DNA of 27,541 nt, from IMG/VR virus record IMGVR_UViG_3300003877_000017, positions 1 to 27,541 of that record; one strand, written 5' to 3'. The DNA comes from a virus. A model generated the notes under the pieces. That model was not told where the DNA came from and searched no databases. It saw only the letters and a program-made list of their open reading frames with translations. The position numbers and the translations under genes are program-made. Every line of letters begins with the position of its first letter. Position 1 is the stretch's first letter. Shown here piece after piece: positions 5,053 through 27,419 of this stretch.

Positions 5053-5433
5053 CTATCCCGCTTTTTTCTTCAAGAATTCTTCTTTAAGTTCTTTGAGAAG
5101 TTTTTTGTCTTCAACGTTGCGCAAAACTTCGCGTCTCTCTTCTTCTGTCATGCCTTCCAGCATTATTAGAATCTTTTGCGAAACATTATCAAGGTTTTCT
5201 TTGTCTATTATATCCTTTATATCTTTTTTCTTAAACATTTCTCCTTCGCCAGTAAGGAGCCAGTCAATACTAACTTTGTAACATTTCTTTAATCGAATCA
5301 TCAGATTGCGTGATGGCTCGTTTTTGCCAGTTTCTATCTCAGCAATAACGCTTTGAGCAATCCCTAGCTCTTGCGCGAAAGCCTTTTGTGAAAGCTTAGT
5401 TGTTTCTCTCACTTGTTTAAGTCTTTTATTCAT
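5053..5433 (-). CDS. CI-like phage repressor, XRE-family HTH
   Basis: The product has 126 residues starting at the ATG at 5431-5433. The open frame extends further upstream but crosses the divergent promoter and loses protein-like composition, so the internal Met is chosen. Residues 1-65 form an XRE helix-turn-helix domain (LSQKAFAQELGIAQSVIAEIETGKNEPS) with the typical IDWLLTGEG ending. The rest is a charged helical tail (about 70-126, LEGMTEEERREVL) that probably mediates oligomerisation. There is no S24/LexA-type self-cleavage domain, so induction would need an antirepressor or another route. It is divergent from the early operon and shares a transcript with the exported-protein gene. Confidence 0.88.
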   Translation of the reverse strand: MNKRLKQVRETTKLSQKAFAQELGIAQSVIAEIETGKNEPSRNLMIRLKKCYKVSIDWLLTGEGEMFKKKDIKDIIDKENLDNVSQKILIMLEGMTEEERREVLRNVEDKKLLKELKEEFLKKKAG

Positions 5434-5460
5434 AACGCTCGGTAAATTCGATTCTTTTTG

Positions 5461-5489
5461 TTGACTTAATCGTAATATCAGATTATTAT
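5461..5489 (+). promoter_or_regulatory. Early rightward promoter
   Basis: TTGACT (5461-5466) is followed after 17 bases by TATTAT (5484-5489), close to the sigma-70 consensus with ideal spacing, and lies 60 bases before the first rightward gene. A weaker leftward candidate for the repressor (minus-strand TTGTTT at 5504-5509, TAATCT at 5480-5485) overlaps it, as expected for a lysis-lysogeny switch. Confidence 0.65.
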
Positions 5490-5492
5490 TGT

Positions 5493-5511
5493 ATTTGTTT
5501 GGTAAACAAAT
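5493..5511. promoter_or_regulatory. Palindromic operator candidate
   Basis: ATTTGTTT-GGT-AAACAAAT is a perfect 8-bp inverted repeat with a 3-base centre. It starts four bases after the -10 box, over the expected start of transcription, an ideal place for the XRE repressor to block the early promoter. Confidence 0.55.
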
Positions 5512-5548
5512 CATGTAAAAAAAACAGCCTCTACAAAAGGAGAAGCTT

Positions 5549-5698
5549 ATGAAAATTACAAAAACTAAAGACGGGTGCCCGACCGTCTGGACAATTGAAG
5601 CTATTACAGCAAATGAAGTATCAAGTACCGAAGGAGCTGTAAACTTTCTTAGGCAAAAAATGCACAAGTCTTGTGTTGTTACACATCGTCCCTTTTAA
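5549..5698 (+). CDS. First early gene, 49-aa protein of unknown function
   Basis: The ATG at 5549 is preceded by AAAGGAG at a good distance. The frame encodes MKITKTKDGCPTVWTIEAIT and ends ...VVTHRPF at TAA 5696-5698. It is the first gene behind the early promoter, a position often held by Cro-type or antirepressor proteins, but no HTH is seen. I do not recognise a family. Confidence 0.55.
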   Translation: MKITKTKDGCPTVWTIEAITANEVSSTEGAVNFLRQKMHKSCVVTHRPF

Positions 5699-6278: not shown

Positions 6279-6454
6279 TGAATATTAGCGAAGTTGGAAC
6301 ATTGATAGATGATTTAGCAGAAAAAGCCTTTACCGGTCAATTAGAGCTTAATTTTCATCGTGGGGCGGTAGGGAAGGCGTATACCAAATCAAAAATACCG
6401 CAGGAAGGGGAGCAGGATGCAAATATTAATACTCGGCAGCCACGGCGTAGGTAA
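6278..6454 (+). CDS. 58-aa DUF2292/YezD-like small protein
   Basis: The ATG (6278-6280) overlaps the upstream stop. The frame encodes MNISEVGTLIDDLAEKAFTG, then QLELNFHRGAVGKAYTKSKI and a basic end, stopping at 6452-6454. The pattern 'short helix, F-G-x-L-x-L-x-FHxG-x-V-x-K' resembles DUF2292 (YezD-type) proteins, common in phages and of unknown role. It overlaps the following ATPase gene by 38 bases in another frame; the overlapped tail (QDANINTRQPRRR) is probably of little importance. Confidence 0.55.
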   Translation: MNISEVGTLIDDLAEKAFTGQLELNFHRGAVGKAYTKSKIPQEGEQDANINTRQPRRR

Positions 6455-7016
6455 AAGCACATTGGCGAAAGACCTTGTTAAGGGGCTGCTTGCAGAGAAC
6501 AGAGGCAACCCGCCGTACATAATAGACGGAGTTTCACGGACAGTAAAAGCACAGGGGTATGAAATAAACGAGAACGGTACGGGTGAAACGCAACTGGAAA
6601 TGTTTAACCGGATAATGTTTGAGTGTTGCAGGAAGCGGAAAGCTTCGCATGTAATACATGTATCATCCATCCCCCGCGTATGGGCTTATAGCTGCTGGAT
6701 ACATCAGGCCGGTAATGGAACAGAGCTATCAAACCAGTTTATGCACATGGTCAGGAATGTGGCAGGGTATCAGATAGCAGAGATGTTTGATATTGTTTTT
6801 TGGCTGCCGATTGAGTTTGATGTTGAGGCCGATGGTGTGCGTAGTGTTGAGGGGAAGTTTCAGAAATATATTGAACGGGCGGTACGTAGTTTGGCCGTGG
6901 CATATGCGCAAACAGGGAAAATAGTATCACTTACTGGAGACCGGCAAGAGCGGGTTGACGCTTCTTTGGAGGTGGTAACTAGGCTGGTTGAAGAACGAAA
7001 GAAGCATTTGCATTAA
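6417..7016 (+). CDS. AAA_28-like P-loop ATPase
   Basis: The product has 199 residues with a very strong GGAAGGGGAG ribosome site inside the preceding small gene. A Walker A motif GSHGVGKST lies at residues 7-15, and a hydrophobic strand ending in a basic/acidic motif (DIVFWLPIEF) lies in the second half. The overall size and the N-terminal MQILILGSHGVGKSTLAKDL pattern match AAA_28/NadR-type kinase-like P-loop proteins often found in phage early regions. The substrate is unknown; nucleotide or cofactor phosphorylation is possible from family resemblance only. It is cytoplasmic. Confidence 0.7.
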   Translation: MQILILGSHGVGKSTLAKDLVKGLLAENRGNPPYIIDGVSRTVKAQGYEINENGTGETQLEMFNRIMFECCRKRKASHVIHVSSIPRVWAYSCWIHQAGNGTELSNQFMHMVRNVAGYQIAEMFDIVFWLPIEFDVEADGVRSVEGKFQKYIERAVRSLAVAYAQTGKIVSLTGDRQERVDASLEVVTRLVEERKKHLH

Positions 7017-7825: not shown

Positions 7826-8008
7826 ATGTGGGAAGAGCAAATAGCATCAGTTGTTTTTGTTAAGCGCGGGAAACTTGGTATTTTTTGTGAGGTGTTGTTT
7901 TGGGATGGTAAGCGGGTATTTTTTGTGAGGTGTTGTTTTGGGATGGTAAGCGAACGACTCTTCGCGCGCCCGGCTTTGCTGGTTTTCGTGATGTTCTTGA
8001 GGCTATAG
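7826..8008 (+). pseudogene. Small early gene broken by a 38-bp tandem duplication
   Basis: ATG 7826 follows AGGA by about 10 bases and sits three bases after the previous stop. It encodes MWEEQIASVVFVKRGKLGIF then CEVLFWDGKR. A perfect 38-bp duplication (7877-7914 and 7915-7952) then shifts the frame by two, giving a hydrophobic junk tail to 8008. Removing one copy restores TTLRAPGFAGFRDVLEAIGN and a natural end at TGA 8050-8052, a sensible 62-residue protein. The gene is therefore disrupted in this sequence. Confidence 0.7.
7877..7952. repeat. Perfect 38-bp tandem duplication
   Basis: Positions 7877-7914 and 7915-7952 are identical over all 38 bases and directly adjacent. Since 38 is not a multiple of three, the duplication breaks the reading frame of the small gene that contains it. 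It is probably a recent slippage event. Confidence 0.95.
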
Positions 8009-8142: not shown

Positions 8143-8835
8143 ATGTCAAAAATAATTGGTTATTTGCGTGTGAGTACAGAGGCTCAGGATTTGGACAAGC
8201 AAAAACACCTGTTAAGAGAACATGCGGAAAAGAACAGGTTTTTTATAGATGAATATATAGAGGTGGCTATCTCTTCACGGAAGTCAAAAGTTGAGCGGAA
8301 AATTGACGAGTTGTCAGGGAAACTAAAAAATGGGGATATGCTTCTTGTTGCTGAGCTTTCGAGGCTTGGGAGAAATATGTTTGAAACACTCGACATAATA
8401 AACGCACTTGGAGAAAAAGGCATAAAAATAGTATTTGTTCGGCAGCCGGAGCTTTCAACCAACGGCGCGCATGGGAAATTATTATTGGCCATATACAGCT
8501 ATTTTGCTGAGGCTGAGCGGGAATACATTTCAATGCGTACCAGGCAGGGCTTAGCCGCAGCAAAGGCAAATGGAAAACAGCTTGGTAGGCCAGAGGGGAG
8601 CAAAAATAAAAACGGTAGTAGATGCCGCCAGTTTTTTGACATGATTAAGGATAATTTGGCGGGCGGAGTACCCGTTAGAAGTATTCAAAAACTCATAAAC
8701 CTGCAAGCAAAAAAGCCTATCAGTTATACAGCTTTGAAGCACTACATTGACAATAGTGAGCTGCTAAGCTGGACAAAGGAAGAGGGGAAGAATAAAGAAG
8801 TTGAGTTTGAACAGTTGCAGGAGGCTAACGTTTAA
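8143..8835 (+). CDS. Serine recombinase, DNA invertase/resolvase family (Mpi-like)
   Basis: The product has 230 residues. The N-terminal resolvase domain begins MSKIIGYLRVSTEAQDLDKQ with the catalytic Ser11. Active-site arginines are in ELSRLGRN (R74, R77), and IKIVFVRQPELST plus LLLAIYSYFAEAEREYIS complete the domain. GRPEGS marks the domain end, followed by a C-terminal HTH-like region (about 160-215) longer than in the shortest invertases. It makes double-strand breaks with a 5' phosphoserine link at paired sites to invert, resolve or integrate DNA. It lies among early genes, far from the tyrosine integrase, so it probably acts on an internal or plasmid-like resolution site. Its stop overlaps the next start (TTTAATG). 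Confidence 0.88.
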   Translation: MSKIIGYLRVSTEAQDLDKQKHLLREHAEKNRFFIDEYIEVAISSRKSKVERKIDELSGKLKNGDMLLVAELSRLGRNMFETLDIINALGEKGIKIVFVRQPELSTNGAHGKLLLAIYSYFAEAEREYISMRTRQGLAAAKANGKQLGRPEGSKNKNGSRCRQFFDMIKDNLAGGVPVRSIQKLINLQAKKPISYTALKHYIDNSELLSWTKEEGKNKEVEFEQLQEANV

Positions 8836-11786
8836 TGGCAGATTTTAAAGAGACGGTACTGCTAAAACTGCGTCATAGTGATGTGTACGGGAAAGTGGAA
8901 AAGCAGAAGGCTGGAACGGGTGATTGGATTAACGGGTTGTGTCCTTTTCATGAGGACACAACCCGTTCTTTTAGTTTTGACGTACGTAGTCTTGCCTGGA
9001 AATGTCACAGTGGTTGCGGTGGCGGGGATGCCTTCGGATTTGTCATGCAGCAGTTAGGAATGGATTTTAAACAGGCTCTTGCATATCTGGCGGAGCTTGT
9101 TGGAGTGGAGAGGGTGAAGAAGAAAAAGCCAAGACCGCCTATCCCAGAAACACTTGTTGATGAACTCTGTAGCAAACTCCCCTCTGAGGCCAGAAAATAC
9201 CTTCATGATAGGGGGATATCTGAGAAAACAATCAAAAACTTTCAGCTTGGTTGGGATGACGGACGGAAACGGGTAAGTATTCCCGTTCGTGATGAAAAGG
9301 GGAACATTCTTAACATTAGATATTATAGCTGGACGCAAAAGCTAAAAATGTTTAACCATATTATCAAAATAGATAAAGACGGGAAAACAGAAGAACATAG
9401 ATATGGCTCACCGGCCCGACTTTTTAACCTGGTGGAACTGGCAGAGACTAAGAAACGCCAGGTGTATCTTGTTGAGGGAGAATTTGACTGTATGCTGCTT
9501 CGGCAGGAGAGCGGCGCTGTTGTCGTGAGTGGAACTCACGGGGCGGGAACATTCCCTTCAGGGTGGGCAAGGTATTTTGATAACAAGGACGTTGTTATTA
9601 TTTACGATTGTGACCACCCCGGCAAAAGTGCCGTAAATAAGATAGTTATTCCGGCACTGAAACACAAGGCCAAGAGCATTAAAAATGTTGTTTTGCCCTT
9701 AAAGGGAACAAGGGCCGACAAGGACATATCCGACTGGTTTGTTAAACGGGGAAAGTCATGGGAAGAATTAAAGGCTGTCATTGACGAAACGCCGGAATGG
9801 GAAGAGCCGCCAGACGAAAACGAAGAGATTATAGACCTGGACTCATTTGTGTGGATTGAGAACAAAAAATATGTTGATAAGAAAATTAGGTGTGAAATTA
9901 CAGTTTGTGGTGAGACGGAAGAGAGTTTTCATGCGGTGGAAGAGTTTATAGTTGAATCCTGCACAAAAAGAGAAAAAGGCGACTGCTGCGAATGTCCCAC
10001 TGATACACCCATGCAGCTAGAGCCAGGGGCCAGGGAGTATATAGGTTCGTGCATGTCAACAGATGTGCAGGTCACACAGGCTTTGCGCTCATATTGCTGC
10101 AAGCTCGGCCAGCGGCCAGTTATAAACATTACCAAGAGGGCAACCATTAAAGAGTTTTTCTGTCATCAAAAGCTTGTGCGAACAACCAGCACGGATACGG
10201 GTGTTGATGAAGACAGTCTTATTGATAACGGCCTTAATCAAGAATTGATTGAAAAACGTGTTTACTATATGTCCTCAAAGGATGTAAAACCCGGTCCTTA
10301 TTTGGCAGTGGGTTGGGTGAAAACACACCCGAAGACGCAGCACGTCACATTTTTAATTGAAAGCCTGGAACCTCAAGAAGAAGACTTCCAGGCGTTTAAA
10401 CTTAAAGACTGCATTCCGCTGCTTAAGCAGTACCGGAAGCTGAGTATCCCTGAAGTACTGGAAGACTTGACGGAGCATGTAACCCGTATTTATCAACGGC
10501 AGGAACTCTTATTGTCAACACTCCTTACGCTTGCATCCCCGCGGTGGCTGCCCTTTAACGGTGAAACAATTCGTGGCTGGCTATTTGTTGTTGTTATGGG
10601 TGACTCCGGCCAGGGCAAAAGTTTAGTATTTAACTCAATTTCTACCTATGCCGGAGTCGGAGACATTGTTTCCGCTCTGACAAGCTCAAGAACCGGCCTA
10701 GCCTATGCCCTGGTTGAACACAAACAAAAGGGCTGGCAGGTGAAAATAGGGCGTTATCCGGCAAACAACGGCAAGCTTCTAACCGTTGACGAAGCGCAGC
10801 ACTTACCAGAGTTTGACCTGCGCTGCTTGTCCATAGCTATCGAAAAGGGCTTTATGCAGATTGACCGCGTACAGAGCAAAGGCTTTGACTGTCAAACACG
10901 CCTCTTGCTGCTGTGTAACCCCAAGAATGACAAAATTATGGACAGTCAGACATTTGGTTGTGAAACCCTCAAAGGGGTTTTCCCAGCGCCGATTATTAGA
11001 AGGCTTGACTTTGCTGTGTTCGTCAACACAAGCGACCTGAGCGATAACCTGGAGTTTATTAATAAGCGCAAAGACCCAAACAGTAAGCCCAAGATATCAC
11101 CTGAAATGCTGCGTGCTGTTATTTACTGGGTTTGGAACCTACGGCCAAAGGATATTGAATTTCACGAAGACGCAGAGAAACGGTGTTTGTCTGAGGCGGG
11201 AAGGCTTGGCGGAATCTTTGGATTTGCAACGGATATCCCCCTTGTATCTCCGGCAGACTTCAGGCACGCATTAGCTAGAATATCAGCGGCATTTGCTGGA
11301 CTGGATATGTCGGCATCAGATGATTTTAAAAAGATGCACGTACTTGAAAGGCACGTTGTTATGGCCGTGGGGATGATTGAGAAAATATACACGCATGATA
11401 ATTGTGGTCTTGATGAGTATTCAGCGGTAATAAAATATAACACGCAATTGCATGACTACGATGTGATTAAAGCCGCCTTCCTTAAAAAGCATAATGATGG
11501 TTGTCATTCCGCCGTTCCAAGCGAAGAAGGCATATCTACCTTTATGCAGGCTGTGCAGGTTTTAAGGGTCAGTGAGTGCGTCAGGCGGGATGATTTGGCC
11601 GACCAGATAGGCATTCATAAAGATAACGTCACGGAGATAATATCCTTCCTGCGGAGGTTTAACCTGGTAGACAGTACCCGTAAGGGATATTTGAAGAAAC
11701 CTAAGTTTGTAAAGTTCTTAAGGCAGTTTATAAAAGACTGTCCTGAAATGCTTACAGAATTTACGAAGGTGAGTGTAAGTAATTGA
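8835..11786 (+). CDS. Primase-helicase: DnaG-type CHC2/TOPRIM fused to MCM-like AAA+ ATPase
   Basis: The product has 983 residues with a strong GGAGG site. The CHC2 zinc finger has Cys36 and His39 (CPFH), Cys57 and Cys61 (CHSGCG). A TOPRIM domain follows with VEGE (E214, E216) and YDCD (D258, D260). The middle region (about 340-540) includes a cysteine cluster (ESC...CCEC, 376-387) suggesting a second zinc site, like an MCM N-terminal domain. The AAA+ motor has Walker A GDSGQGKS (589-596), Walker B LLTVDEAQ (648-655), a sensor LLLCNPKN (691-698) and an arginine-finger-like IIRRLD (720-725). The C-terminus (about 915-970) looks like a winged helix. It should unwind DNA and make primers for phage replication. 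The family call for the motor is by motif only. Confidence 0.85.
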   Translation: MADFKETVLLKLRHSDVYGKVEKQKAGTGDWINGLCPFHEDTTRSFSFDVRSLAWKCHSGCGGGDAFGFVMQQLGMDFKQALAYLAELVGVERVKKKKPRPPIPETLVDELCSKLPSEARKYLHDRGISEKTIKNFQLGWDDGRKRVSIPVRDEKGNILNIRYYSWTQKLKMFNHIIKIDKDGKTEEHRYGSPARLFNLVELAETKKRQVYLVEGEFDCMLLRQESGAVVVSGTHGAGTFPSGWARYFDNKDVVIIYDCDHPGKSAVNKIVIPALKHKAKSIKNVVLPLKGTRADKDISDWFVKRGKSWEELKAVIDETPEWEEPPDENEEIIDLDSFVWIENKKYVDKKIRCEITVCGETEESFHAVEEFIVESCTKREKGDCCECPTDTPMQLEPGAREYIGSCMSTDVQVTQALRSYCCKLGQRPVINITKRATIKEFFCHQKLVRTTSTDTGVDEDSLIDNGLNQELIEKRVYYMSSKDVKPGPYLAVGWVKTHPKTQHVTFLIESLEPQEEDFQAFKLKDCIPLLKQYRKLSIPEVLEDLTEHVTRIYQRQELLLSTLLTLASPRWLPFNGETIRGWLFVVVMGDSGQGKSLVFNSISTYAGVGDIVSALTSSRTGLAYALVEHKQKGWQVKIGRYPANNGKLLTVDEAQHLPEFDLRCLSIAIEKGFMQIDRVQSKGFDCQTRLLLLCNPKNDKIMDSQTFGCETLKGVFPAPIIRRLDFAVFVNTSDLSDNLEFINKRKDPNSKPKISPEMLRAVIYWVWNLRPKDIEFHEDAEKRCLSEAGRLGGIFGFATDIPLVSPADFRHALARISAAFAGLDMSASDDFKKMHVLERHVVMAVGMIEKIYTHDNCGLDEYSAVIKYNTQLHDYDVIKAAFLKKHNDGCHSAVPSEEGISTFMQAVQVLRVSECVRRDDLADQIGIHKDNVTEIISFLRRFNLVDSTRKGYLKKPKFVKFLRQFIKDCPEMLTEFTKVSVSN

Positions 11787-11974
11787 TAATAATAGACGAT
11801 ACTGCAAATGCAGCAATGACTCACCTGCGTAAATCAAAAAAAGGCTCCACCTATATAATTACGTTGACAACGTAAATTTAGGGGTGAAAGCAATTCCCAG
11901 ATTACGAAGGTGAGTCATTGAGATAATTAATATTATTCTTAACAAAAACAATGCTTTAAACTCACCTTCGTAAA
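11760..11974. repeat. Nested, exactly symmetric inverted-repeat array; candidate replication origin
   Basis: A 15-bp motif (TTTACGAAGGTGAGT) occurs four times: 11760-11774 (+), 11819-11833 (-), 11901-11915 (+) and 11960-11974 (-), with at most one or two differences. The outer pair, the inner pair (extended to 11814-11834 and 11900-11920) and a central palindrome TTACGTTGACAACGTAA (11859-11875) are all centred on base 11867. Both outer-to-inner gaps are 44 bases. The array starts inside the last codons of the primase-helicase gene and ends 19 bases before the next gene. Symmetry plus position suggests an origin or initiator/regulator site. Confidence 0.8.
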
Positions 11975-11993
11975 ATAGCAAAATAGGCTAAAA

Positions 11994-13637: not shown

Positions 13638-13841
13638 CTCTTAAAGGCCATGTTTAACGAATGGGGCGCGGGAAAGTCACCTAGTTAATAAGCCTCGCGC
13701 GAACAAATTGTATTTTTTCAGATAATAAGATGGCGACAGTTAGCACCCCTCTTAAAGGCAACGTTTGGCGAATGGGGCGCGGGGAAGTTCCAATATTAAA
13801 ACTCGCGCGAATCATTGTAATTTTTCAGGTAATAAAATGGC
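13638..13841. repeat. Imperfect tandem leader repeat before the small terminase (13638-13734 and 13749-13841)
   Basis: Both copies run CTCTTAAAGGC, GTTT, CGAATGGGGCGCGGG, CTCGCGCGAA, TTTTTCAG, TAATAA and end in ATGGC. In each, GCGCGGG can pair with CTCGCGC (one G-T pair) to form a 7-bp hairpin. The ATG of copy 2 is the real start of the small terminase; the ATG of copy 1 opens only a spurious frame. It is a candidate pac/cos recognition site or translational control element. Confidence 0.75.
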
Positions 13842-21389: not shown

Positions 21390-22560
21390 TTTGGGCAATA
21401 TAGCAATGCTTGACGGTGTATTAAAAGGGATTGTTGGTATAGGCAAGAGTGCGAAAAGCAAGGAACTTAACGAGTATTATAAACAGAAGGCAATAACCGA
21501 GAGGTTTAGGCAGCTTGAAGCCAGGAACAAATTACTCTCAGAGCCTACACCGAAAGAAGCTAAGAATAAGCGAGACGAAGACGCTCGAAAACTGGAGCTA
21601 GAGGCACAGCAAAAGTATGGAGACGCTTTGAAAGCAGCTTTGCTTGACATAGCAGCAGGGAAGATTGCACCGCCGCCTGCGGGGACAACGCCAGAAAATA
21701 TTCAAGAGTTTAATAAAACTGCCGCCATTGCGCGTCAATTTGGGGAGTTTAAGAGGCAGAAAGAAGCGGGAATAAAGAATTTACTGGCTGAACAAGCACT
21801 AGGCAGAACACTTGCTCTTGAGCGCGGGAAGGCCATTATTAAAAGTGAAGTGCAGCCGCCACCTTTGAGTACCAAAGACCTTATTGGCAATAAGGTTTTC
21901 GACCCTAAAACGGGCAAGTCAAAAACCTATACTGCGCCCAGATGGAACCAAGATAAGAAAAAGAAGGCAGCCTCACCTTACAAAATAGAGAACGGTAAGC
22001 TTGTGAAGAAAAAGAAGGCAGCCTCACCTTACAAAATAGAGAACGGTAAGCTTGTGAAGAAAAACAAGCAGGGAAGTAAGAAAGCTGGAAAGGAGCCGAC
22101 AGAGGCACAAGCAAGAGCACAACTTATTAAACTGATGCTACAGAAAAACAGCCTTAATAACAAGGGGAAAATTAACCCTGAATTACTGAAAGATACAACA
22201 TCTTTTGAAAAACAACAGTTATTAAAAGTTGCTGGTACTCCTATACCGCCTACTGTGCTTAACGCTATTAACACAGAGATAGATAAGCAAATAGCATATT
22301 ACAGCCAATTTGCAAACAAGCCAAGATTTGGGTTTGATAAGCCTGCAACTAAATTTTTATCACCAGATTTTATAGGCGAAGGTGAAAACCTTTCTATGTC
22401 GTTAATTCCTTTGCAGAATAGTCAAGCCTCTACCATACAGAAACTTGATAAAAACGACCCTGCTGACCAAAAGATAATGTGGGAAATTTTCAAAGAGGCA
22501 GGTCAAAACAGAGCCAAAGCTTTAGAACTAGCAAAACAAAAAGGGTATGTTTTTAAATGA
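21382..22560 (+). CDS. Basic, helical internal virion protein (putative)
   Basis: The product has 392 residues. It starts with a short Gly-rich hydrophobic segment (GSLGNIAMLDGVLKGIVGIG), then a long helical, Lys/Glu-rich region (about 25-150), a basic linker with a perfect 17-residue tandem repeat (AASPYKIENGKLVKK, near 194-228) and a helical C-terminal domain (about 235-392). The layout and position just before the large polyvalent protein suggest a protein packaged in the head and injected with the DNA. Its start overlaps the previous stop, and its stop overlaps the next ATG (ATGA at 22557-22560). Confidence 0.55.
   Translation: MGSLGNIAMLDGVLKGIVGIGKSAKSKELNEYYKQKAITERFRQLEARNKLLSEPTPKEAKNKRDEDARKLELEAQQKYGDALKAALLDIAAGKIAPPPAGTTPENIQEFNKTAAIARQFGEFKRQKEAGIKNLLAEQALGRTLALERGKAIIKSEVQPPPLSTKDLIGNKVFDPKTGKSKTYTAPRWNQDKKKKAASPYKIENGKLVKKKKAASPYKIENGKLVKKNKQGSKKAGKEPTEAQARAQLIKLMLQKNSLNNKGKINPELLKDTTSFEKQQLLKVAGTPIPPTVLNAINTEIDKQIAYYSQFANKPRFGFDKPATKFLSPDFIGEGENLSMSLIPLQNSQASTIQKLDKNDPADQKIMWEIFKEAGQNRAKALELAKQKGYVFK
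21961..22062 (+). repeat. Perfect 51-bp tandem duplication, in frame
   Basis: Positions 21961-22011 and 22012-22062 are identical. Each encodes 17 residues of a basic linker, so the reading frame is kept, unlike the 38-bp duplication at 7877-7952. Confidence 0.95.
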
Positions 22561-25500
22561 ATAATCCCTTCTCAATCTTTGCTGAAAAAGAACAGAAGAA
22601 AAACAAAGTGAAAGATGAAAACCCATTTTCAATCTTTGACGAAGAAGAAAGCCTCAAAGAGAAAGATGAAAACCCATTTTCAATCTTTGCTGAAAAAGAA
22701 CAGAAGAAAAACAAAGAGAAAGATGAAAACCCATTTTCAATCTTTACTGAAGAAGAAAGCCTCAAAGAGAAAGATGAAAGTCCCTTCTCAATCTTTGACG
22801 AAGAAAAACAATCACCCTCATTAATTCCCATGCACAAGACTATAGTTCCTGAGCTTATACCAACGTTTCAAGTAGAAAAAGAGCCGGAGGAGGTTATAAG
22901 CCAGGGCACAGAACCGGGGTTTATGGAAAATATCTTTCGGGGCGCAAAAGACCTTGTTTCTTATATGGGAGGTCAAGGAACATCAACAGCGGCCAAGCGA
23001 GCGGACGCACAGATTGCGCTTGAGGCCAGAGAGAAGGGACTGCCAAAAGAAGCGTATATGAGGGAGGTGTACCCGGAAGGTGAAGCCAGGCGGAGAGTTA
23101 GAAGGACACTAGATGCTACCGCAGGCGGCGCACTTGGCACGCTTGAAGGAATAGCGGGCTTTTCCGAGGCAGTTACAGGTGGAGCCGTAGGCGCAGACCT
23201 TGCGAACGAAGCGCAACAGTGGCGGCGAGAGCTACAATCTGAGGAAGTTGACTTTTATGATGAGTTGGCAAGCGGGTTAGGTTCGTCAGGTATATTTTTT
23301 GTGCCTGGTATGGGCGTTGCCAAAGGAGCAGAAGCACTTATGAGCGTGGCTCCACGATTGGCTATGTGGCTAGGAACTGGACTCTCTACCGGAATTGAAG
23401 CAGCTACGGAAGCGGGGCAAACATACCGCGATGTAATGGCAGAAACCAAGGGAAACAGAGGGGAAGCAGAAAAGGCCGCAGCAAAAACATTCTTTCTTAA
23501 TATCCCCACACTTGCACTTACAAACAAGCTTGGCGTGTTTTCAGAAACAGGCGGCATATTAAAAAAAGCCTTAACCTCTGCACCCCTTGAAGGAATACAG
23601 GAAGGCGCACAGGAAATTATATCAAGTTATGCACAGGACAAGCCTATTGATTGGGAGGCTGTAAAGCGTTCCGCTGAGGTTGGTGCTGTTTCTGGCGCGC
23701 TCTTTGGTGCCGGTGAGGGAGCTATTGAACATTTTTCAAGGGGAGAGAGAGAAATACACTTGCCAGAAGTGGAAAAAGAAAATGTCTCACTCTCAGAGAC
23801 CAAGGACACCCAGACTATAGATGAAATACTGGCTGAATTTGACGAGCCTAGTGATAACGAAAATATTGAAGATAATGACAAAGAACCCGTTACAGACGAC
23901 ACCGAAGAGGGGTTTATTGACGTTAAAACTCCTACACCACGCCTTAAAGTGAGTTTTAATACTGAGAAACATTCATTAACTGATTTTGTACGTCAACAGG
24001 GCGGACTTGTTTCTTCTAATCTTGCAGGGTTTAAAGGAGAACTCAAAGACCATTTTGCGGTAGGTACCGGATATGGAATGATTAACAATAAAACCGGCAG
24101 AAGCGTTGATGAAATGAGGATACTTGCCGAGGGTGAAGGTTTTACCGTACCGGAAACGGACGCAGACTTTCTGGAGATGATAAAGAAAGATGCGGACGCG
24201 AAAGTATATGACGAACCAAGTAAGCGGGTTTGGCATCCGGGGAAGCAGGAGTTTTCAGAGGTTGAAAGTGACTTTTACCCGCCTGAAATGAGCGGGGCTT
24301 ATGGCGACACTGGCGGGTACAGTGTTAAAGAAAAAGTTGACTACATGAAGAAGGAAAGGAATGTAATCAAGCTGCCTGAGATAGTTGAGCTTGTTAATGA
24401 ACTGATGGAGGGAAAATACCCCGGAATTAAAGAGAAAATAGGGCGTAAAGACAGTATTCAGGGCAGGTTTATCTTTGGTGGTAAGAAAGCCGGAAATATT
24501 GAGCTAAGAGCAGACCTCTTTAAAGACCCTCAGAAAGCAGCTTATACCCTCGCTCATGAAGTTGGACATTTGGTTGACTGGCTGCCGGACAAATATATGT
24601 CACGCGGCAACCTTTTAGGAAGGCTAGCCAGTTTAAAAAAGTACATGAAAGAGTGGGAGTTTACGAACGGTAAAACAAAGGGCATGGGCAGGCAGAACAG
24701 CGAAATACGAGAAGAACTAAAACGTCTTACGCAAACTATAAAACCATTTGACGAAAAAGCGAATGAGAAGTTTACCAAATATCGGTATTCGTCACCAGAG
24801 CTGTACGCTGATGCCTTCACAACATTGATTAATAACCCTGACTTGTTAAGGGATGTTGCGCCTACATATAAAAATGCTTTTTTTGAGTACCTGAACAAGA
24901 AGCCCGAAGTAAAACGTCTTTATGACAATATTGAGGGGCGTATACAGAACGCTGACGCTGTTTTTGAAAGGCGGCAGGAGAGAGTACACTCAGGGTATGA
25001 ACGAGCGGAAGAGGCACGAAGAAAAGAGCTTGAGCGCAGACAGAGTGAGCGTAAGCGCTCATGGAGCCAAGAAGTTATTGACGTTAATGCACCTATAATT
25101 GACAAGGTAAAAAGGGCGAGTAAAACCCTTGCTGAAAAATACGACCGTTTGAATGATGCTAATGCACATGTGAAAGAATTTGCACAGAACCGATTTGCTG
25201 AGAATAACCCTGAGTTTGCACTGGAAGAATCAAGCTATGCTAACTCCCAGGTAAAACTTTTCTTACAAGAGGTTGATGAAAATGTTTTAAACCCGCTTAA
25301 GGATAACGACCTAACACCGGAAGATATAGCAGACGTTCTGTTTCACGAACGAATAATAAACGAGCGCAAGGACATAGCAAACCCATTGGGATTTGACCCA
25401 TTAGAGTCAAAAGAACAGCTTAGAGGGATAGCCGCAAGAGTAGGTATTAAAAAATATATTGCTCTTACAAGAGCTGTACAAGAGTTTAGGAAATTACGAA

Positions 25501-27419
25501 AAGAGCATATTCTACCTGTTATAGAAGAAGCAAAAATGTTTGACCCTGCAATTATGCAGAAAATACGCGACAATGACCACTACGCAACGTTTAACGTTGC
25601 TCATTACCTGGAAGGCAAAAAAGGCGCAGGCTCCGGCACTGCAAAGATATTCAGGCAGATAGGAACGCTTAGCGAGATTGAAAACCCATTCACAGCAACA
25701 GTCATGAAAGAGATAGTTTTACTTAAGGCCGCAAAGCGTAAGATTGCAGCGGATAAAACTGTTGAATTTATGAAAGAGTTCTTCCCCAATGAAATACGGG
25801 AAGCTGACAGGGTGTGGAACGGTAAAACACGTGTTCCGAATGCGCCAAAAGACCCGGCCCTTGGCATGATTAGATACATGGAAAACGGAAAAGAAAAAGG
25901 CTATTACGTAGATAAATATATTGCAGAATCGTTTAATCTTGACCCGCAGGAGATGGGGCGCTTTGCTGGATTATTGAGAAGTTCAAACGTGCTATGGCGT
26001 GAAGTATTTGTGGGTAAAAACCCTGGGTTTTGGTTATTTAATATGATACGAGATTATAAACGAGCAGCAACCAATTTGCCCGGCATGTCAATAACCAGCT
26101 TCTTGCCACAATATTATAAGGCCATAAAACCAGCTTTCCGTGAGGTATTTGGAATACCCGAAGATGTAACGCGGGAGATGAACCAAAATAATATGCTTAT
26201 AAGCATGGAGTCAGCACACACGCTCTCGACTGAAGAGAAACAGCTAGAAAGGCTTTTAAAGTCATACGGTGTAAGTGAACGAAAGTGGGAAAACAATATT
26301 ACAAAGCCTATTATGAAGTTTTGGGACTTCTTAGGGAATATTACCGAAGTGGGGGAAAAGATACCGAAAATTGCTGCTTATCAGTACCTTAAAGAGCAAG
26401 GGAAGTTTTCAGAGAAAGAGATTGGACATATTGTCAGGACACAGGCGGGTAGCCCCGATTTCTTACGTCAGGGGAAAGAATACAGTCTTTGGAACAATTT
26501 GCTGTTGTTTTCAAATGCTGCTAAAGAGGGGTGGCGTGGTGACATCGAAGCTATGCAGAGAGATAGGACTGGATATTCTTTTAAAAGGCTTGGTTATGCA
26601 CTTATGCCTAAGCTCATTATGCTCGCTATGGCTGCGGGATATATGGGTGACGACAACAAGGAGATAATAGATAACCAATCAGAATTTATAAAGACTAATT
26701 ATAGTGTCATTCCTTTAGGGAAAACGTCCACCGGAAAGGGAGTTGCGTTAACTCTTCCTGAAGATGAAATAGGCCGATTTATTGGTGGTCTTTTTTGGAA
26801 GACGATGAACTTAAACAAAGAAAGGAGTCTTACCACCTTCTCTGAGGGGCTTTTTGATTATATGGCGGGGCAGGCTCCTACACTTACGCCTTCCCTTACG
26901 ATTCCGGGTGACATTGTGAACTATTTGGGAGGACGCAACCCCTATGATTCTTTTAGAGGCAGGACGGCAATACCAAAGAAAATATGGGAAGCGGGCGGCA
27001 CGAAAAGAAGAAATGCTTTTTTAAAGTATTTGTGGAATGAGGCCGGCGGCGGGATTTTATACCGTTTTAAAAATGATAACGTTGAGGATATCAAAACAGA
27101 GCTGGAAAAGGTAATAGGCTTGCCGGTAGCTAGTAATGTTATAGGGCGGTTTATACGGGTGTCAAACACTGGAAAAAGGCAGGAGCTTAGGTCTGTTTCT
27201 AGCGGAATAAGGCAGAAAGAGGCGAACAGGCAGCTTGAGCTTAAGGAAAAAATACTTGAGCATGTAAACGCGGGGAAGACAAGCGCAAAGGATGTGTATT
27301 ATTTGTTCCGTAGTTTGAAGAAAGATGGGTTGCTTTCTGCAAAGACAACGGATTCACAATTCAGGAGGATGTTTCAGCGGTATGCTTGCTTCCAGGAGAG
27401 CAGGAGACCCAAGAGTTGA
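22557..27419 (+). CDS. Large polyvalent/ejection-type protein with repeats and zincin-like site
   Basis: The product has 1620 residues. Residues 1-85 carry five NPFSIF-type motifs at 3, 22, 39, 58 and 75 with alternating 19- and 17-residue spacing. A Gly/Ala-rich, hydrophobic segment lies at about 170-290, a metallopeptidase site HEVGH at 667-671 with a candidate third ligand Glu748 in SPELYADAF, coiled helices at about 850-1010, and from about 1130 a domain with VFVGKNPGFWLFNMIRDYKR resembling LPD38, a domain common in phage large polyvalent proteins. These proteins are thought to be carried in the head and ejected into the cell. It may cleave the cell wall or host proteins; activity is inferred from the motif. 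The C-terminus is probably frameshifted at about 27380. Confidence 0.75.
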   Translation: MNNPFSIFAEKEQKKNKVKDENPFSIFDEEESLKEKDENPFSIFAEKEQKKNKEKDENPFSIFTEEESLKEKDESPFSIFDEEKQSPSLIPMHKTIVPELIPTFQVEKEPEEVISQGTEPGFMENIFRGAKDLVSYMGGQGTSTAAKRADAQIALEAREKGLPKEAYMREVYPEGEARRRVRRTLDATAGGALGTLEGIAGFSEAVTGGAVGADLANEAQQWRRELQSEEVDFYDELASGLGSSGIFFVPGMGVAKGAEALMSVAPRLAMWLGTGLSTGIEAATEAGQTYRDVMAETKGNRGEAEKAAAKTFFLNIPTLALTNKLGVFSETGGILKKALTSAPLEGIQEGAQEIISSYAQDKPIDWEAVKRSAEVGAVSGALFGAGEGAIEHFSRGEREIHLPEVEKENVSLSETKDTQTIDEILAEFDEPSDNENIEDNDKEPVTDDTEEGFIDVKTPTPRLKVSFNTEKHSLTDFVRQQGGLVSSNLAGFKGELKDHFAVGTGYGMINNKTGRSVDEMRILAEGEGFTVPETDADFLEMIKKDADAKVYDEPSKRVWHPGKQEFSEVESDFYPPEMSGAYGDTGGYSVKEKVDYMKKERNVIKLPEIVELVNELMEGKYPGIKEKIGRKDSIQGRFIFGGKKAGNIELRADLFKDPQKAAYTLAHEVGHLVDWLPDKYMSRGNLLGRLASLKKYMKEWEFTNGKTKGMGRQNSEIREELKRLTQTIKPFDEKANEKFTKYRYSSPELYADAFTTLINNPDLLRDVAPTYKNAFFEYLNKKPEVKRLYDNIEGRIQNADAVFERRQERVHSGYERAEEARRKELERRQSERKRSWSQEVIDVNAPIIDKVKRASKTLAEKYDRLNDANAHVKEFAQNRFAENNPEFALEESSYANSQVKLFLQEVDENVLNPLKDNDLTPEDIADVLFHERIINERKDIANPLGFDPLESKEQLRGIAARVGIKKYIALTRAVQEFRKLRKEHILPVIEEAKMFDPAIMQKIRDNDHYATFNVAHYLEGKKGAGSGTAKIFRQIGTLSEIENPFTATVMKEIVLLKAAKRKIAADKTVEFMKEFFPNEIREADRVWNGKTRVPNAPKDPALGMIRYMENGKEKGYYVDKYIAESFNLDPQEMGRFAGLLRSSNVLWREVFVGKNPGFWLFNMIRDYKRAATNLPGMSITSFLPQYYKAIKPAFREVFGIPEDVTREMNQNNMLISMESAHTLSTEEKQLERLLKSYGVSERKWENNITKPIMKFWDFLGNITEVGEKIPKIAAYQYLKEQGKFSEKEIGHIVRTQAGSPDFLRQGKEYSLWNNLLLFSNAAKEGWRGDIEAMQRDRTGYSFKRLGYALMPKLIMLAMAAGYMGDDNKEIIDNQSEFIKTNYSVIPLGKTSTGKGVALTLPEDEIGRFIGGLFWKTMNLNKERSLTTFSEGLFDYMAGQAPTLTPSLTIPGDIVNYLGGRNPYDSFRGRTAIPKKIWEAGGTKRRNAFLKYLWNEAGGGILYRFKNDNVEDIKTELEKVIGLPVASNVIGRFIRVSNTGKRQELRSVSSGIRQKEANRQLELKEKILEHVNAGKTSAKDVYYLFRSLKKDGLLSAKTTDSQFRRMFQRYACFQESRRPKS
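22560..22810 (+). repeat. NPFSIF repeat tract, alternating A-B-A-B units
   Basis: Five near-identical copies of a CCATTTTCAATCTTT-type core encode NPFSIF or SPFSIF. Two linker types alternate, EKEQKKNKxKD and EEESLKEKD, making a 36-residue (108-base) higher-order repeat. Confidence 0.9.

Follow-up and report, generated by a model that had tools for sequence, protein, structure and literature searches.

A phage protein joining a DnaG-type primase to an MCM-type helicase, with a candidate four-site origin at the end of its gene

Replicative primases and ring helicases come in two textbook pairings: a TOPRIM primase with a 5'-to-3' RecA-type ring in bacteria and phage T7, and an archaeo-eukaryotic primase (AEP) with a 3'-to-5' MCM ring in archaea and eukaryotes. 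The IMG/VR virus record IMGVR_UViG_3300003877_000017 (positions 1 to 27,541, a stretch of 27.5 kb called the window here) raises the question of whether these pairings can be crossed. A first-pass annotation, made from the letters alone, had proposed that a single gene of this record encodes a DnaG-type primase fused to an MCM-like motor. We asked whether the fusion is real and how far it extends beyond this record, and we also found a symmetric four-site element that straddles the end of the gene. Sequence comparison and structure models confirmed a DnaG-type primase fused to an MCM-type helicase (TOPRIM-MCM). The protein is very probably the phage's own, self-contained replicative primase-helicase, with a predicted polarity opposite to that of T7 gp4.

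The domain order was CHC2 zinc finger, DnaG/TOPRIM core, MCM-type N-terminal domain with cysteines, MCM AAA+ motor, and a C-terminal helix-turn-helix (HTH)/winged-helix-like end (Table 1; residue numbers are those of the 983-aa protein). The open reading frame (ORF), its coordinates and the motifs and domains named by the first-pass annotation, including the cysteine cluster, the VDEAQ motif (residues 651–655) and the IIRRLD finger, were all recovered in the sequence, in Pfam searches and in alignments. The CHC2 ligands C36, H39, C57 and C61 were invariant in every alignment row covering them, and E214, G215, E216, D258 and D260 were invariant in the relatives covering these positions. The Pfam models DNAG_N (partial, residues 112–143) and Toprim_2 (211–288) scored under their cut-offs; the TOPRIM/DnaG assignment was made nonetheless, because the N-terminal half matched DNA primases in PHROG, because a PDB profile search with an alignment of 17 relatives returned for this half only primases of the DnaG/T7 gp4 type (those of A. 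aeolicus, E. coli and T7, with E values as low as 8e-23), and because the EGE...DxD residues were invariant. The conserved catalytic residues give no sign of a dead enzyme. Within the stretch coding for CHC2 lies a perfect inverted repeat of 15 nt around a 7-nt loop (8931–8967).

Table 1. Features of the primase-helicase gene and of the element at its 3' end (OB, oligonucleotide/oligosaccharide-binding; positions are those of the window).
Feature	Position	Strand	Details and basis
TOPRIM-MCM primase-helicase gene	8835..11786	+	983 aa; ORF, Pfam, PDB profile search
CHC2 zinc-binding domain	8892..9119	+	residues 20-95; PF01807 E 6e-13, exceeds cut-off
DnaG-type core + TOPRIM	9168..9698	+	residues 112-288; E214-G-E216, D258-x-D260; Pfam, PHROG, PDB profile
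MCM-type N-terminal domain	9816..10391	+	residues ~328-519; OB-like strands, inserted cysteine cluster; VIA alignments of both models
MCM AAA+ motor + lid	10392..11432	+	residues ~520-866; PDB profile, VIA, Foldseek
Walker A GDSGQGKS	10599..10622	+	residues 589-596; motor alignment
Walker B	10776..10793	+	residues 648-653 (D652, E653); motor alignment
Presensor-1 hairpin basic residue R678	10866..10868	+	K/R in 33/33 aligned motors
Sensor 1 asparagine N695	10917..10919	+	motor alignment
Arginine finger IIRRLD	10992..11009	+	residues 720-725; R723, D725 invariant in TOPRIM-MCM, AEP-MCM, archaeal MCM
Sensor 2 arginine R815	11277..11279	+	aligned to archaeal MCM LIRL arginine
C-terminal HTH/winged-helix-like region	11526..11783	+	residues ~898-983; model helices + two-strand wing; weak Pfam HTH match
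Symmetric four-site element, candidate replication origin	11759..11975	.	~215 bp; straddles stop codon, overlaps last gene bases
Site 1 TTTACGAAGGTGAGT	11760..11774	+
Site 2 TTTACGCAGGTGAGT	11819..11833	-
Site 3 ATTACGAAGGTGAGT	11901..11915	+
Site 4 TTTACGAAGGTGAGT	11960..11974	-
Small gene, 109 aa	11994..12323	+	just downstream of primase-helicase; tblastn homologues, same place in L004, L014, L016, L022

The motor was examined in an alignment of 21 TOPRIM-MCM, six AEP-MCM and six archaeal MCM motors. K595 of Walker A was invariant across the whole alignment, as were N695, R723 and D725; R815 was an arginine in all motors save one with lysine, and Walker B E653 was retained in all except one archaeal row. 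The G621 position of the helix-2 insert aligned with archaeal MCM, as did the presensor-1 and arginine-finger positions. The middle cysteine cluster (C353, 358, 376, 384, 385, 387, 406, 421, 422 and 443), in which C376 and C387 were conserved across almost every TOPRIM-MCM and AEP-MCM sequence, falls in the MCM N-domain, where MCMs have a zinc site, and may bind zinc. Residues 469–967 matched phrog_18685 (1028 positions, unknown function). The Pfam MCM P-loop domain (PF00493) matched residues 551–730 with 36.8 bits against a cut-off of 23.3, but the same model also exceeded its cut-off in bacterial control genomes without MCM, and this match was dropped as sole proof of class. Because the model is unspecific, the class assignment rests on the PDB profile, in which the motor matched MCM chains only (archaeal MCM E ~4e-12, between residues 506 and ~880), and on structure comparison.

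Two AlphaFold models were used, one of the full-length protein (model 1, pLDDT 75) and one of residues 325–983 based on a more diverse alignment (model 2, pLDDT 79, pTM 0.70). Among the 50 Foldseek matches listed for the full-length model, 49 were MCM or MCM-containing replisome chains and one was A. aeolicus DnaG; for the motor-half model, all 50 listed by Foldseek and all 50 listed by VIA were MCM or MCM-containing replisome chains. VIA aligned SsoPfMCM with model 1 over 439 residues (Z 24.4, rmsd 4.9; window residues 328–862) and with model 2 over 466 residues (Z 30.7, rmsd 7.8); the root-mean-square deviation (rmsd) is large across two tiers and was 3.5 A over ~310 residues for AAA+-only chains. 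In the best archaeal alignments, the first aligned MCM residue falls at about 62 to 105. Since they span the MCM N-domain, and since the crystal chain 6mii_E starts at residue 103, the primase probably sits where MCM has its A-domain. Both HTH-like helices and a two-strand wing were present at the C-terminus of the models, which agrees with the winged-helix end proposed earlier; the HTH match at the sequence level was weak. RecA/DnaB and superfamily 3 (SF3) motors were also searched for and were absent from the PDB profile matches and the listed structure matches, so the outcome that the first-pass annotation had named as refuting its MCM-like motor did not occur.

Two other identities of the motor were weighed against these data. 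Another helix-2-insert AAA+ ATPase of the ChlI, ComM/YifB or RavA/MoxR type, joined to a primase, would be compatible with a Pfam match that is ambiguous by itself, but it is very improbable given a PDB profile with MCM matches throughout, listed motor-half matches that were all MCM or MCM-containing, and a structural match that spans the MCM N-terminal domain as well as the AAA+ core (439–466 residues, Z 24–31). An ordinary phage primase-helicase with a RecA-like DnaB/T7 gp4 or SF3 motor, to which the likeness of the primase half to those of T7 gp4 and phage DnaG would point, has a negligible chance of being correct, as DnaB_C was unmatched in the record while the same model matched in all control genomes, and as MCM was matched by both sequence and fold, with presensor-1, helix-2 insert and arginine finger aligning with archaeal MCM.

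Close relatives with 40–53% identity over the full length were found in IMG/VR contigs and in bacterial assemblies labelled Candidatus Kuenenia, Planctomycetota, Acidobacteriota, Gemmatimonadota and Omnitrophota. A chance origin is excluded because the entire domain order is conserved at this level of identity. Phage genes (exonuclease, AAA_24, RecD2, Mom, ERCC4, terminase) surrounded the relatives that were inspected. In cultured phages of Bacillus, Microbacterium and others, tblastn gave 43 records with at least 80% coverage; the Pfam-checked BSP7 (Bacillus), Krampus (Microbacterium), Wollypog (Arthrobacter) and API480 (Paenibacillus) had TOPRIM and MCM in the same domain order, the MCM matches of Krampus and API480 being under the cut-off. 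Their primase halves fell in the window's clade, whereas overall identity to the window protein was ~23–27%. Used as a query against viral contigs, BSP7 gave zero matches, and Krampus and API480 gave few, with a short-peptide method that undercounts. Mass spectrometry has identified the API480 member, gp47 (105 kDa), from 9 unique peptides (PMC6937236). The same domain order, sought elsewhere as the first-pass annotation had suggested, was thus found: the pairing is real, but it is a coherent phage family already in databases and not a singleton. In one relative (L007, 439–3373) the primase-helicase frame was broken early and the open frame stopped at 1230, owing to a sequencing error or a mutation.

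The pairing of TOPRIM with an MCM-like motor is unusual against the textbook systems, as had been noted, but the term 'replicase' first given to the protein was replaced by primase-helicase, as a polymerase domain is lacking. TOPRIM-MCM proteins are labelled 'DNA primase', 'DNA primase/helicase' and in some cases 'DNA primase small subunit' in databases. The public labels of L026, L032, L035 and phage BSTP5 (MW354669) were inconsistent (putative DNA primase, DNA directed DNA polymerase, DNA primase small subunit). A 2018 survey treated MCM in bacterial mobile elements together with AEP primases (PMC5862659), and a 2025 review singled out T7 gp4 as unique in being a single polypeptide. The literature searched, which did not cover the main 2016 survey of double-stranded DNA (dsDNA) virus replication, gave no description of the TOPRIM-MCM pairing, and an earlier mention is possible. 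The parts are known and the family, a widespread one, is in databases; as far as we searched, the family as such is undescribed.

The protein shares different halves with several known systems. Like T7 gp4, it has a zinc finger and TOPRIM primase N-terminal to a ring helicase in a single polypeptide, but the T7 motor is of the RecA type and moves 5'-to-3' on the lagging strand, whereas that of the window is an MCM AAA+. With archaeal and eukaryotic MCM it shares the N-domain, AAA+ core, presensor-1, helix-2 insert, arginine finger and sensor 2; it differs in a primase at what is probably the A-domain position, in an SRF motif of RRxD or ARxD, and in motors that form a separate clade. BcMCM and phage or plasmid AEP-MCM proteins such as that of vB_BboS-125 likewise join an N-terminal primase to a C-terminal MCM half in one polypeptide. 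The AEP-MCM motor half was 28.7% identical to that of the window over 489 residues (E 4e-49), but its primase is archaeo-eukaryotic (PF01896) and that of the window is of the DnaG-type TOPRIM class. The homologous motor with an AEP occurred in Bacillus phage vB_BboS-125, in a B. velezensis plasmid and in 21 BboS-125-related IMG/VR loci; PF01896 was present in L028 and L031 and absent from the window protein, the N-terminus of which is CHC2/TOPRIM.

The primase tree, which included seven other DnaG-type primases for comparison, grouped 21/21 TOPRIM-MCM primases in a single clade (support 99/95). As the sampled TOPRIM halves form one clade, a single fusion event is likely. In the best motor tree, the AEP-MCM motors were nested between the window-type and the remaining TOPRIM-MCM motors. 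Judged from these trees, the primase was swapped at least once on this motor, and either direction is compatible with them, because the best motor tree splits TOPRIM-MCM yet its monophyly was not rejected (approximately unbiased test, p-AU 0.21).

A search for DnaB_C in the window, nine related viral records and six complete genomes of superfamily phages gave no match, so that TOPRIM-MCM is the sole recognisable replicative ring helicase in the records searched. The complete genomes encode either PolA (BSP7, API480, BboS-125 and ctIqW946) or DnaE (Krampus and Wollypog). A single-stranded DNA-binding protein family was found in API480 only among the records searched and was uninformative.

The element at the gene end comprised four copies of TTTACGAAGGTGAGT in alternating orientation, spaced by 59, 82 and 59 bp; 0.87 matches were expected, and 0/100 shuffles reached four. 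We scanned loci for four alternating sites with near-equal outer spacings, using a spacing window learned from the first few loci. The best place in the whole locus was the end of the primase-helicase gene, well over background, in the window and seven relatives; in these eight loci the outer spacings were equal (51–66 bp), the inner spacing was 82–90 bp, and the site sequences differed. The element scored above all 40 shuffles of the same region in 12/17 window-type loci, the window included. Each half carried a conserved spacer motif (about CTTA...GATTT), and the halves were inverted round a centre which, in several loci, was itself partly palindromic. A profile of the half-element, derived from the eight loci, also picked up the two halves in L007 (a close relative of L006), in L014 and in L016, making 11 loci; the weaker halves in L014 and L016 had E values of 3.2 and 0.37, respectively. 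It gave no convincing match elsewhere in the loci searched. Outer sites best matched outer sites and inner sites inner ones (234/306, against 209 and 204). As in an initiator-bound iteron origin, the sites repeat in a fixed geometry beside the gene, and this arrangement is conserved in relatives; the chances are about even that the element is an origin recognised by the primase-helicase. The window protein would then work like the alpha protein of satellite phage P4, a single protein that acts as primase and helicase and recognises its origin through repeat sites in cis (ori/crr); the P4 primase is AEP-type and the P4 motor SF3-type.

Domain identity, catalytic-residue conservation, family spread, the lack of a detected DnaB in the viral records searched and the conserved element are observations; hexamer formation, polarity, priming, origin recognition and loading are inferred, and the proposed scheme is as follows. 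About six copies would form an MCM ring round the leading-strand template and travel 3'-to-5' with the N-terminal tier toward the fork. MCM and CMG move in this direction with the N-tier leading and the lagging strand expelled there, whereas RecA-type rings move 5'-to-3' (PMC13105403). The CHC2 and TOPRIM primase, fused N-terminal to that tier in place of the A-domain, would sit at the lagging-strand exit and could lay RNA primers on the strand as it emerges. In eukaryotes Pol alpha-primase has the same encounter with the newly exposed lagging strand, whereas the geometry of T7 gp4 is the opposite. The four-site element is probably read by the C-terminal winged-helix-like region or by the N-tier, and two rings would be loaded on it in opposite orientation. 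For BcMCM, a related AEP-MCM fusion, 3'-5' helicase activity and primase activity are reported (PMC4538821), and by analogy the TOPRIM version is likely active. A one-protein replisome core of this kind, in which a DnaG-type primase would occupy the leading face of the MCM ring while two opposed rings are loaded on a four-site origin at the end of its own gene, is put forward tentatively, as a possibility somewhat short of even.

Several points weigh against a replicative primase-helicase of this kind with its own origin. The lack of DnaB and polymerase in the window means little, because the record is a 27.5-kb fragment. The geometry was not found in five of the more divergent window-type loci, or beside the BSP7, Krampus, Wollypog, Paenibacillus (API480) or AEP-MCM genes. 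Model confidence was moderate, with the poorest values near the helix-2 insert and in some stretches of the N-domain, and the fold comparison scarcely reached the C-terminal domain. No biochemistry of any TOPRIM-MCM protein was found in the literature searched.

The strongest competing explanation concerns the element, which might be a packaging (cos/pac), transcriptional or recombination site unrelated to the primase-helicase. In its favour are a terminase large-subunit gene ~2.2 kb downstream in the window and a gene for a serine recombinase immediately before the primase-helicase; recognition of the element by the primase-helicase, moreover, is a prediction. The distance to terminase varies among loci (~4.2 kb in L020), however, whereas the element keeps its place at the primase-helicase gene end, and no homologue of the serine recombinase was found in the loci of the relatives. 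This explanation is a serious one, to which we give slightly less than an even chance. It is unlikely, by comparison, that the enzyme serves replication restart or recombination-dependent replication while host DnaB and DnaG do most of the work. The neighbours of the gene in relatives include recombination nucleases (exonuclease, AAA_24 and ERCC4 genes lie close by), RecD2 and terminase; bacterial hosts possess DnaB; and PolA, DnaE and PolB were not found in window-type contigs, which reach 77 kb and are possibly incomplete, so that window-type viruses may use the host polymerase. Against a restart role, the complete phages of the wider family have their own polymerase and no DnaB, and the symmetric element beside the gene suggests origin recognition. 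A structured RNA is less probable still. The element folded far better than shuffles (z -9.4, as DNA), but an RNA would have to hold, within one strand, the reverse complement of its own half, asymmetric spacer motif included; Rfam gave no match to the element, and in several relatives the element overlaps the coding end. Because the halves are inverted copies with an asymmetric spacer, recognition as dsDNA fits better than RNA.

The record looks like that of a temperate phage, with a gene for a CI-like transcriptional repressor at 5053–5667 (-). The serine recombinase (resolvase/invertase) gene, at 8143–8835, ends at the primase-helicase start codon; upstream of it lie two head-to-tail 38-bp direct repeats, 76% alike (7857–7932). 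A thymidylate-kinase-like small P-loop protein was encoded at 6417–7016 (phrog_2107). The product of the 109-aa gene that follows the element matched no Pfam or PHROG family. Further downstream, 40-bp direct repeats (13638–13677 and 13749–13788, 88% alike) lie in an ORF-poor stretch of ~1.3 kb before the terminase genes, and a 1620-aa ORF of the structural region (22557–27419) had no PHROG match.

The TOPRIM-MCM family crosses both textbook pairings, indicating that primase type and helicase polarity are separable. It offers a small single-polypeptide system, also present in cultured Bacillus subtilis and Microbacterium phages, for studying how the lagging strand is reached by a primase whose helicase is on the other strand, and thanks to the symmetric element, recognition of an origin by such a protein can be tested directly. 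If the proposed replisome core is correct, it would be a single-gene analogue of the archaeal and eukaryotic arrangement of origin, MCM and primase, built with a bacterial primase.

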